Assembly (NCBI GenBank): GCA_902634885.1
Contig: CACPLR010000010.1
Coordinates: forward strand, 1 to 36,086
DNA from: an uncultured Pelagibacteraceae bacterium
GTDB taxonomy: Bacteria > Pseudomonadota > Alphaproteobacteria > Pelagibacterales > Pelagibacteraceae
Direction: 5' to 3'
Length of the DNA: 36,086 nt
Both the position numbers and the translations under genes were made by a program. This document shows, one piece after another, positions 18,374 through 21,571 of this stretch. The notes under the pieces are model-generated. The model was not told the origin of the DNA, did not search any database, and was given only the letters and a program-made list of their open reading frames with translations. Position 1 is the stretch's first letter. Each line of letters opens with the position of its first letter.

Positions 18374-19060
18374 TTAATCTATGAGATATTTCTTAATGAT
18401 TTCCTCGATTCCATCAAAATTTTTAATTAAATAATCGTGGTGAATTTCAGAGACTTTCTTATCAGTGTATCCATCTTCCAAAAGTATAAATGGTATTTTA
18501 GCTGCTTTTGCAGACTCAGCATCCGTTTCACTGTCTCCAATCATTATACTTTTTTTTACATCACCCTGCATAATTTCTATTACATTTGTTAAATGTCTTG
18601 GATCAGGTTTGCAGTAATCAAATGTATTGCTTCCAGCCACATACTCAAAATAATCATATATTTTTATTTCTTTTAATAAGTTAATAGCAAGATGTTCTTG
18701 CTTGTTAGTACATATACCCATTTGGATTTGATTTTTTTTTGACCATTCTAAAAACTCTTTAACACCTTTTATTAACTTGCTTTCAATGACAATATTTTTT
18801 CCATAATAATCAATAAATTCTTTGACCATTTGTTTTTTTATTTTTTCATCAATAACTTTACTAAATTCTTTTTTAGCTTGCCCCCAGATGGACCTGCTGA
18901 TCATTACTGATGCACCCTTGCCAGCAAGATTTCGAATATCTTCAGTAGTCTTTGTATCATAGCCAAATTTATTCATTACATAGTTGTGTGCGTTCATTAA
19001 ATCTGGCGCGGAATCCACAAGAGTACCATCTAAATCAAAAAGAATTGTTAGTTTTTGCAT
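18374..19060 (-). CDS. gph: HAD-family phosphatase, phosphoglycolate phosphatase-like
   Basis: A 228-residue haloacid dehalogenase-fold hydrolase. The four motifs are present: nucleophile D9 and acid D11 in LFDLDGTLVDS, ICTNKQ (motif II), a Lys in YCKPDPRH (motif III) and MIGDSETDAESA near residue 174 (motif IV). The helical cap inserted after motif I (LVDSAPDLMNA) resembles Gph, which removes phosphate from 2-phosphoglycolate arising from DNA repair. Substrates of this family overlap, so pyrophosphatase-like or nucleotidase roles remain possible. It lies 43 bases upstream of prpD on the same strand and may be co-transcribed. Confidence 0.75.
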   Translation of the reverse strand: MQKLTILFDLDGTLVDSAPDLMNAHNYVMNKFGYDTKTTEDIRNLAGKGASVMISRSIWGQAKKEFSKVIDEKIKKQMVKEFIDYYGKNIVIESKLIKGVKEFLEWSKKNQIQMGICTNKQEHLAINLLKEIKIYDYFEYVAGSNTFDYCKPDPRHLTNVIEIMQGDVKKSIMIGDSETDAESAKAAKIPFILLEDGYTDKKVSEIHHDYLIKNFDGIEEIIKKYLID

Positions 19061-19129
19061 AATTTAAGTTTTTTTAAGAAATAAATTGTGAATTAATTAA
19101 AACAAAACCTAAATATATACAATCATTAT
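19061..19129. promoter_or_regulatory. Divergent promoter region between gph and the glmU-like gene
   Basis: These 69 bases separate divergent starts for the gph-prpDBC and glmU-glmS units. They are nearly all A and T. TATATA at 19114-19119 could be part of a -10 element for the plus strand, but I see no well-spaced -35, operator or riboswitch. The call is positional. Confidence 0.35.
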
Positions 19130-19750
19130 ATGCTTCAAAACAATTCACATATCGAACAAAATAAATTAAGAAAAAAATTTTTAAAAAAAGGGATTAAAAT
19201 GATAGCTCCTGAAACAATTTTTTTTTCTAAAGAAACAATTATTGGTAAAAATGTAACGATAGAACCGTATGTTGTATTTTCAAAAAAAGTTAAAATTGGA
19301 AATAATGTTACAATAAAATCATTTTCTCATCTCGAGGGGGTTACTGTTGAAGATAACGTTGATATTGGTCCTTATGCGAGGATTAGACCTAACGTGAGAA
19401 TTCAAACAGGTTCAAAAATTGGAAACTTTGTTGAAATTAAAAAAAGCAACATCGGCAAAAACTCAAAAGTAAATCACCTATCTTATATAGGTGACTCTAC
19501 TATTGGTAAAAATGTGAATATTGGAGCTGGTACTATTACTTGTAATTATGATGGGGTTAAGAAAAGCAAAACAAATATCAAAGATGGTGTATTTATTGGA
19601 TCGAATTCATCATTAGTAGCGCCAGTTACAATTAATAAGAATAGTGTTGTTGGTGCAAGTTCAGTTATAACAAAAAATGTATTATCAAAAAGTCTTGCTT
19701 TGACTAGATCAAATCAAATAACAATAAAAAATTATAAAAGAAAAAAATAA
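19130..19750 (+). CDS. glmU: GlmU acetyltransferase domain standing alone (glucosamine-1-phosphate N-acetyltransferase)
   Basis: Only the C-terminal half of GlmU: a left-handed beta-helix that acetylates glucosamine-1-phosphate with acetyl-CoA. It has 206 residues, against about 450 for the usual bifunctional protein. Hexapeptide repeats run from about residue 36 to 180. Catalytic and binding residues are kept: H116 and Y119 in VNHLSYIGD (H363 and Y366 of E. coli), ARIRP near 84, EIKK near 103 and [13 protein letters not shown] at 130-142. No uridylyltransferase signature (LAAGxGTRM) is present, and the region upstream is the divergent gph gene, so this is not a simple frameshift. It directly abuts glmS, so the role in UDP-GlcNAc synthesis is well supported. 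Confidence 0.85.
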
Positions 19751-21571
19751 ATGTGTGGGATAGTTGGCATAACAAGTTCTAAAGAAGTCACTTCTAGAAT
19801 AATAGGATCATTAAAAAAACTCGAATATAGAGGATATGACTCTGCTGGTATAGCTACAATAACTGAAAATAATATTAATGAAGTAAAGTGTGAAGGAAGG
19901 GTAAATGAATTAGAAAAAAATATTAGTCAAATAAATTTATCAGGTACAATAGGAATTGGTCATGTAAGATGGGCAACCCATGGAAAACCAAGTGCAATTA
20001 ATGCTCATCCTCATTCTTCAGACAATGTTTCGGTTGTACATAATGGTATAATTGAAAACTCTACTATTCTAAAAAAAATATTAGAAAATAAAGGATATAA
20101 ATTTAAATCACAAACCGATACAGAGGTAATTGTACATTTGGTGAGTGATTACTTAAAAAAATATAATTTAAAAAATACAATCATAAAAGTACTCAAGAAA
20201 TTACATGGAAGTTTTGCATTAGGAATAATTTTTAAGAATCAACCTGACCTAATAGTTGGTGCAAGAAGAGGATCTCCATTAGCTGTGGGTTACGGTCCTG
20301 ATGAACACTATTTAGGATCAGATTCTTACGCTCTAAAATCAATGACTAATAAGATTTCATATTTAAATGATGGTGAGTTTTGTATTTTGAAAAAAGATCA
20401 AGTTGAATTTTTTGATTCAGATGGAATCAAAACAAATAAAGAAATTTTAAACCTTTCTAAGGATGAACAAAATTATGAAAAAGGCCAATATAAATATTTT
20501 ATGGCAAAAGAAATAGATGAGCAACCTGTAACAATAAAAAATTGTATCAATGAATATATTGACAAACATAATAATGAAATAAATATTTATAATTTTCCTT
20601 GGAAAATAAGTGATATTTCTTCAGTTGTGCTTATAGGTTGTGGTACTGCCTATCATTCTTGTTTGGTTGCAAAATATTGGTTTGAGCAGAATACAAATAT
20701 GGATGTCTCTGTAGATATCGCATCAGAATTTAGATATCGAAAAATAAAGTTTAAACAAAATGCTCTATATATATTTGTTTCTCAATCTGGAGAGACAGCA
20801 GATACATTTGCGGCACTTGATATATGCAAGAAAAATGAGGTTAAAACCTGTGCGATTGTAAATGTTGTTGAGAGCTCAATTGCAAGAGACGCAGATTTAG
20901 TCTTGCCAATTCATTGTGGACCGGAAATTGGTGTTGCTTCTACAAAAGCCTTTCTAGGTCAAATGCTAGTGTTATACTTGCTATGTACAAAGATTTCTTA
21001 CGAACAAAAAACAATTATAAAAAAAACATATCAAAATAAAATTAAGGATTTGTTATTACTTTCTAAATGTGCGAAAGAAACACTAAACATAGATAACAAA
21101 ATCCACAATTTAGGCAAAGATTTTGCCAATTCTAAAGGATCAATGTTTTTAGGAAGAGGTTATTCGTATCCGATTGCTCTTGAAGGCGCTTTAAAACTGA
21201 AAGAACTTGCTTACGTACACGCCGAAGGGTATCCAGCCGGCGAAATGAAGCATGGTCCATTAGCTCTTATAGAGGAAGGTATGCCAGTTGTTGTAATTGC
21301 TCCAAGAGATGAACATTACAAAAAAACAATTTCTAATATGCAAGAAGTTATATCGAGAGGTGCCAAGGTATTACTTATAACCAATAAGAGCACTGATGAA
21401 ATTTTTTCTGAAAATATTTGGGAGCAAATAGAAGTTGAAAATATATCTGATGAACTACTTCCTTTTCTAACTACAATCCCTTTACAAAAACTAGCCTATT
21501 ATTCAGCTTTAGAGAAAGGCTTTGATATTGATAAACCTAGAAATCTCGCTAAATCAGTTACTGTTGAATAA
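19751..21571 (+). CDS. glmS: Glutamine-fructose-6-phosphate aminotransferase (isomerizing)
   Basis: Makes glucosamine-6-phosphate from fructose-6-phosphate and glutamine, the first step to UDP-GlcNAc. The sequence starts MCGIVGI, so Cys1 of the mature protein is the glutaminase nucleophile. HVRWATHGKPS and HNGIIEN follow in the Ntn amidotransferase domain (about 1-240). Two SIS isomerase domains follow, with GCGTAYHS, SQSGETADT, and the end AKSVTVE holding the conserved C-terminal Lys. The 606 residues are full length. Its ATG immediately follows the glmU-like stop. No glmS ribozyme leader is possible here as there is no spacer. Confidence 0.96.
   Translation: MCGIVGITSSKEVTSRIIGSLKKLEYRGYDSAGIATITENNINEVKCEGRVNELEKNISQINLSGTIGIGHVRWATHGKPSAINAHPHSSDNVSVVHNGIIENSTILKKILENKGYKFKSQTDTEVIVHLVSDYLKKYNLKNTIIKVLKKLHGSFALGIIFKNQPDLIVGARRGSPLAVGYGPDEHYLGSDSYALKSMTNKISYLNDGEFCILKKDQVEFFDSDGIKTNKEILNLSKDEQNYEKGQYKYFMAKEIDEQPVTIKNCINEYIDKHNNEINIYNFPWKISDISSVVLIGCGTAYHSCLVAKYWFEQNTNMDVSVDIASEFRYRKIKFKQNALYIFVSQSGETADTFAALDICKKNEVKTCAIVNVVESSIARDADLVLPIHCGPEIGVASTKAFLGQMLVLYLLCTKISYEQKTIIKKTYQNKIKDLLLLSKCAKETLNIDNKIHNLGKDFANSKGSMFLGRGYSYPIALEGALKLKELAYVHAEGYPAGEMKHGPLALIEEGMPVVVIAPRDEHYKKTISNMQEVISRGAKVLLITNKSTDEIFSENIWEQIEVENISDELLPFLTTIPLQKLAYYSALEKGFDIDKPRNLAKSVTVE

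Follow-up and report, generated by a model that had tools for sequence, protein, structure and literature searches.

Most Pelagibacteraceae (SAR11) examined carry, as a clade-wide trait, a GlmU of half length that consists of the acetyltransferase part of the enzyme. UDP-GlcNAc feeds peptidoglycan and lipid A, and GlmU is regarded as a fixed bifunctional enzyme and as a drug target; SAR11 bacteria, which are free-living, are among the most abundant cells of the ocean. The half enzyme was found in a window of 36,086 nucleotides, the whole stretch of DNA analysed, from an uncultured member of the family whose genome is 79% complete. It very probably still converts GlcN-1-P to GlcNAc-1-P, after which a pre-existing uridylyltransferase of another family would make UDP-GlcNAc. 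Two proteins are the main candidates for this last step, GalU in the first place and a MurU-like protein in the second.

The reading frame lies at 19130-19750 on the forward strand, begins with ATG, encodes 206 amino acids and ends immediately before glmS. Its top NCBIfam matches are GlmU models, covered over their C-terminal part only: PRK14353 is matched from 239 to 434 of 453 positions (E 2.8e-87), and TIGR01173 from 234 to 450 of 452 with 237.8 bits, which is below the cut-off for full-length GlmU (366.85). Solved GlmU structures are matched across the acetyltransferase domain, a left-handed beta-helix. In the alignment to GlmU of E. coli K-12, ten positions that are presumed to be functional acetyltransferase residues (R333, K351, H363, Y366, N377, N386, K392, S405, A423 and R440) are all identical, the equivalent of H363 being codon 116 (19475-19477, forward strand). 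The N-terminal 30 residues or so (19130-19225, forward strand) are the equivalent of the linker helix and were matched with 40% identity in a tblastn search with residues 219-270 of GlmU from genome G069. Judged by its sequence, the frame encodes the linker helix of GlmU followed by the C-terminal acetyltransferase domain and lacks the pyrophosphorylase half, and its product is a GlmU homologue without the defining two-domain feature, that is, an acetyltransferase-only derivative. The original prediction had described precisely such a half, with an intact acetyl-transfer site, between a divergent gene and glmS, and this description is borne out.

The adjoining glmS (19751-21571, same strand, no gap; PRK00331, E 1.1e-231) encodes glutamine--fructose-6-phosphate transaminase, which catalyses the first committed step of the same pathway. 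Upstream, a gene for a HAD-family phosphatase (18374-19060, reverse strand), identified by its reading frame, by profile search and by the gene order of relatives, is the conserved divergent neighbour of glmU and is separated from the half gene by 69 bp (19061-19129). Its product matches phosphoglycolate phosphatase models with scores under their cut-offs. Its position beside glmU resembles that of MupP beside GlmU in Caulobacter (CCNA_02390 and CCNA_02389 in a table of PMC13046382); by this analogy, the protein may serve the AmgK-MurU recycling route as MurNAc-6-P phosphatase.

The half-length form is shared by the relatives of the window, a point that the original prediction had put forward for checking. 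The closest named relatives of the protein, 88-96% identical over its length, belong to uncultured Pelagibacteraceae such as AG-360-M22. Among the best 80 of 477 matches, the half-length frame is present in 80 of 80 (192-211 residues, the shortest ending at a contig end), the HAD gene in 79 and glmS also in 79, the two misses sitting at contig ends; in most of them the half gene lies about 60-74 bp from the HAD gene. A GlmU model was matched at E <= 1e-30 in 310 of 397 Pelagibacteraceae genomes, with one match in each. Of these matches 298 score below the full-length cut-off (at most four candidates were scored per genome, a listed profile range backs part of the 298, the rest being placed by score, and a few are weaker, E about 1e-65 to 4e-40, and possibly fragments), and the 12 above it come from genera g12 and g15, six from each. 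An 821-residue fusion of the half enzyme with GlmS in genomes G065 and G144 was rejected as stop read-through, both genes being present.

A frameshift, a misassembly or an incomplete genome could conceal the N-terminal domain. Some data lend themselves to this explanation: the genome of the window is incomplete, G637 has two separate GlmU halves at contig ends (likely one broken gene), and in the single-contig genome G100 (genus g15; locus L233, 1758-3079) an otherwise full-length GlmU is split over two overlapping frames within the N-domain, by sequencing error or early decay. Nevertheless, the agreement of all 80 relatives and the presence of the half gene between the HAD gene and glmS in single-contig genomes such as G012 and G065 refute it for the main clade, and its probability is negligible.

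Full-length GlmU occurs in 22 of 24 genomes of the sister family (f2), its gene being flanked in all 22, as in the window, by the HAD gene and glmS, and the gene-order comparison places the pyrophosphorylase domain of about 220 residues of that family and of g12 and g15 where the window has its 69-bp intergenic gap. It follows that a complete GlmU was most likely present in the common ancestor and that its N-domain disappeared from the gene at this site. The original prediction had named relatives with a fused gene at the locus as evidence against it; such genes do occur, and they speak for a derived loss of the domain and not for an error.

The number of losses was addressed with a tree of the HAD protein, the half enzyme (LbH) and GlmS (27 rows). 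The half-GlmU genera g1, g5, g6, g7, g9 and g14 form a main clade (ultrafast bootstrap 95) with the fused g15 and g12 outside it; the node joining g15 to this clade has a value of 78. Genus g8, also with half GlmU, is basal, the node that leaves it outside the main clade, g15 and g12 having 75, and genome G114, again with a half GlmU, is nested within the fused g12 with 100. Parsimony on this tree requires three changes. In an AU test on a 'quick' tree, joining the main clade with g8 was rejected (p = 0.0056), as was joining the main clade, g8 and G114 (p about 1e-51). Related to this, G114 is the only genome with a convincing remnant of the N-domain: 197 bp separate its HAD gene from the half gene, of which the final 134 bp or so are a decayed piece of that domain. 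Its DNA aligns to the G069 glmU gene with 78% identity over 727 bp, from about codon 190, stops and frame changes precede the acetyltransferase frame, and the start of this frame is a Met within the linker. Apparent remnants in some g6 and g7 genomes (profile matches from 190-194 with stops) were taken as alignment overreach, the half gene lying about 54-72 bp from the HAD gene in the five inspected. Two losses of the N-terminal pyrophosphorylase domain from a gene that kept its site are thus well supported, one in the common ancestor of the main Pelagibacteraceae clade and an independent one in G114; g8 is probably a separate loss, which would probably make three in SAR11.

The original prediction held that the uridylyltransferase is encoded elsewhere or has been replaced. 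The 79% complete genome of the window gave no full-length GlmU at any other place; its best-scoring proteins against the N-terminal section of the GlmU model (42.8 and 41.8 bits) are HddC/MurU-like and GalU proteins. Besides, no stand-alone GlmU-type N-domain was found among all candidates scored in 37 Pelagibacteraceae genomes, in which N-region matches reach at most 59.6 bits. A GlmU divided over two genes, as the original prediction had also suggested, was consequently not encountered, whereas replacement gains ground: since the half GlmU is common to the relatives and no full-length GlmU was found, it is implied, although not proven, that another nucleotidyltransferase carries out the uridylyl transfer. 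Repeated loss of the domain argues for a substitute that was capable of the reaction beforehand, in the common ancestor.

In a PF00483 inventory of 24 near-complete Pelagibacteraceae genomes (93-100%; 19 with half GlmU), GalU and a MurU-like protein were each present in 24 of 24, and RfbA-, HddC- and MocA-type proteins were patchy. Two genomes that are 99% complete and consist of one contig each (G086 and G123) have only ManC-, GalU- and MurU-like proteins among their PF00483 matches. The same recurrence was obtained in 20 further genomes (84-97%; G114, at 76%, was excluded), judged on frame length and score, and only GalU- and MurU-like proteins recur throughout both sets. A protein of about 191 residues that matches GlmU positions 2-139 in several half-GlmU genomes was discarded: that of G012 is MocA-like, with what look like xdh-type genes beside it, and length was the criterion for the others. 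On the other hand, G018, G023 and G114 have a protein of 231-247 residues that matches the whole GlmU N-region weakly (49-57 bits). That of G114 (C6:68451-69137; L314, L354) is a 238-residue nucleotidyltransferase among glycan-type genes, and it matches the GlmU profile from 3 to 228 (E 1.0e-15). These matches point to possible local GlcNAc-1-P uridylyltransferases.

These weak matches also lend something to the idea that UDP-GlcNAc is supplied by an unrecognised nucleotidyltransferase or by an enzyme of a family outside those searched, for example of the UDPGP type (PF01704) like eukaryotic UAP1; PF12804 was covered in 12 genomes. This idea is considered unlikely, because no proteins other than the GalU- and MurU-like ones turn up in every inventoried genome and because repeated losses are easier with a substitute already in the common ancestor. 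Far less probable is that no replacement is needed, UDP-GlcNAc being imported or the pathway being defunct with the acetyltransferase as a relic. SAR11 genomes are reduced, and Rickettsia, which keeps the opposite half of GlmU, is predicted to import the precursor according to the text available of PMC5615194. Moreover, 14 of 140 near-complete Pelagibacteraceae genomes, including G004 (96%) and G216 (95%), gave no GlmU match at E <= 1e-30, which is somewhat above expectation from incompleteness. Against this, the acetyltransferase residues and the glmS neighbour have been kept across deeply diverged genera, and uptake of nucleotide sugars from sea water is implausible.

Replacement by a pre-existing enzyme being the preferred reading, the first candidate is the GalU orthologue encoded in the panC|galU-ugd locus, also recovered from the genome of the window. 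That it is the replacement GlcNAc-1-P uridylyltransferase is a real possibility, short of probable. The protein belongs to the GalU family by best-ranking family, fold and synteny with ugd; against a TIGR01099 cut-off of 326.8, it reaches 272.3 in fused genera and 243.6 in the main clade. It is favoured because a burst of change, which includes the active-site loops, falls on the stem branch that leads to the main half-GlmU clade. The ratio of divergence between this clade and the fused genera to divergence inside the clade, obtained for seven genes from the same genomes (17-18 of the main clade and 5 fused, with g8 left out, the split-versus-fused grouping imposed as a constraint, and ugd and panC partial in many rows), is 1.76 for GalU (site bootstrap 1.59-1.96) against 1.12-1.25 for ahcY, amgK, murU, gpmA, ugd and panC; with a different taxon set, GlmS, HAD and LbH have ratios of 1.10, 1.35 and 1.17. 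With g8 as outgroup and under the same constraint, the ratio of main-clade stem to depth is 1.14 for GalU versus 0.19-0.33 for ugd, panC, murU and gpmA, and the value of the fused stem of GalU (0.37) falls inside the range of these four genes (0.13-0.39).

Twenty-five GalU sites are fixed differently in the two classes, ten of them derived in the main clade, six in the fused genera and nine unclear. The main-clade changes include K21S, L109T, Y168W and Q228H, the E. coli protein showing K, L, Y and Q at these positions; compared with bacterial GalU, K21 and Y168 are thus lost in the main clade and kept in E. coli and in fused SAR11. By L109T the motif GLG becomes GTG, as in GlmU at the corresponding motif. 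Position 21 aligns with K21 of Pseudomonas aeruginosa GalU, for which the accessible text of PMC11005391 describes an active-site loop from A10 to K21, a GXGTRXLPXTK motif that includes K21, and a K21 mutation that dissolves the tetramer and nearly abolishes activity; K21, D67 and R101 are given there as the residues most crucial for the tetramer. Since, in an alignment made by way of H. pylori GalU, the fused SAR11 genera already depart from P. aeruginosa at the positions of D67 and R101, K21S may mean an altered assembly and not an altered substrate.

A fuller version of this proposal, judged slightly less likely than GalU as the replacement and also than the MurU-like alternative discussed below, is that main-clade GalU was remodelled into a dual enzyme for UDP-glucose and UDP-GlcNAc, a non-orthologous replacement after repeated loss of the uridylyltransferase half of GlmU. 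Loss of the N-domain of GlmU in place left an acetyltransferase that stands alone and whose active site is intact. In the favoured reading GalU, its active-site loops changed on the main-clade stem, would have gained GlcNAc-1-P as a substrate, and use of Glc-1-P would probably have been retained, because ugd is still its neighbour.

The burst in GalU accompanies one of the three losses, and GalU of g8 and G114, which have half GlmU too, shows none. Main-clade GalU is not more GlmU-like overall (50.1 bits with TIGR01173 versus 53.9 for the fused g12), and its modelled fold looks plainly that of GalU. In G004 galU stands at its usual panC|galU-ugd place (L169, 793-1606) with a frame change between about codons 85 and 101, either sequencing error or decay, and no GalU was found by PF00483 in G033 (90%, half GlmU), where it may lie in a gap; both genomes count against GalU unless errors or gaps explain them. 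Furthermore, the text available of PMC12203929 deals with 11 UDP-glucose pyrophosphorylases; sugar range was tested for six, all of them Glc-1-P-specific, two named ones giving less than 10% with other sugars.

The second candidate is the MurU-like protein of the ahcY-tsaE-amgK-murU-gpmA locus, which may take GlcNAc-1-P besides MurNAc-1-P and so make the GlmU N-domain dispensable; this is given slightly less weight than GalU. MurNAc-1-P is GlcNAc-1-P plus a lactyl group, so acceptance should be chemically easy and MurU would be the chemically simpler substitute. A search of 49 Pelagibacteraceae genomes matched MurU at E <= 1e-80 in 46, including all 42 that are at least 90% complete; the misses are the genome of the window and G114 (76%), and G071 (71%) has a fragment only. 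It is intact in G004 and G033 (outside those 49), where GalU is broken or was not found. AmgK, a MurNAc and GlcNAc anomeric kinase in the text available of PMC5371407, was matched in 44 of 46 genomes, a few times as fragments only. Of 25 MurU sequences from half-GlmU genera (G004, without GlmU match, among them), 24 have Pro just before the presumed catalytic Asp, whereas all eight from fused genera have Ser or Cys there; few other sites distinguish the two classes. However, g8 MurU keeps Ser at this position, MurU has no rate burst on the stem (ratio 1.19), and it is equally present alongside full-length GlmU in f2, g12 and g15. Like known MurU (PDB 4y7t, 8hhd), the SAR11 protein is a minimal nucleotidyltransferase usually found beside amgK, and MurU structures (4y7u/4y7t) are the best matches of its predicted model. 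It differs from known MurU in its identity of 22-24% and in its NCBIfam scores, 110.7 bits where the MurU cut-off is 250 and 92.6 bits where it is 370.

Of the 24 near-complete Pelagibacteraceae, 22 have amgK at the murU locus. In the other two, G065 (g8; L256) and G102 (g6; L258), the murU-gpmA pair is kept and unlinked from ahcY-tsaE-amgK, murU standing beside argF-like or lpd-like genes by eye. An apparent retention of MurU where AmgK had been lost in these genera failed, amgK being elsewhere in those genomes. In G009 (L182, 2186-3628) tsaE and amgK form one frame of 480 residues, a possible fusion.

If the acetyltransferase half stands alone and an enzyme of GalU or MurU type performs the final step, there is an unsuspected bypass in the UDP-GlcNAc pathway. 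One of the most conserved steps in the synthesis of bacterial cell-wall precursors would have been replaced non-orthologously, and pathway reconstruction would have to be corrected for a very large bacterial group. The repeated losses of the N-domain are, besides, a natural experiment on the dismantling of a fused enzyme.

Compared with the bifunctional GlmU of E. coli K-12 (b3730; TIGR01173), the window protein has the same left-handed beta-helix acetyltransferase domain and the same ten residues, and glmS adjoins in both; it differs in having no N-terminal pyrophosphorylase domain, of which the linker helix alone is retained. The likeness to archaea and eukaryotes drawn in the original prediction is loose, because at least some archaeal enzymes are two-domain proteins (TIGR03992; PDB 5z09, a 'dual sugar-1-phosphate nucleotidylyltransferase'). 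A literature search on SAR11 and on monofunctional, truncated or split GlmU, covering few subscription papers, gave no report of an acetyltransferase-only SAR11 GlmU among the matches listed, which hints at most that this form is new. The opposite reduction has already been published: Rickettsia GlmU lacks the C-terminal acetyltransferase domain (PMC5615194, in the part available). Both are one-domain forms of GlmU in reduced alphaproteobacterial genomes, each keeping the half that the other has lost.

Reduced forms also occur elsewhere in the class. In a class-wide draw of 387 genomes, 341 were above the GlmU cut-off and 46 below, and 22 of these 46 were followed up together with G114. GlmU reduced to its N-half (profile from 2 to about 243), away from contig ends, is present in ten alphaproteobacterial genomes, five of family f39, two of f49 and three of f77 (L295, L297, L301-L308). 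In family f123 (G596 and G676; L298 and L299) a shrunken N-domain of about 140 residues is joined to an intact acetyltransferase with glmS adjoining; the aligned G596 protein has no glycine loop and carries other residues at D105, E154, N169 and N227, and uridylyltransferase catalysis has apparently been lost. Family f123, first read from PF00483 as lacking MurU, has it in G596 by profile search (E 1.9e-42) and none was found in G676, so it does not discriminate between GalU and MurU. In f123 as in SAR11 the acetyltransferase half is intact beside glmS, whereas f123 retains part of the N-domain; it is a different stage of the same reduction of GlmU, in another family.
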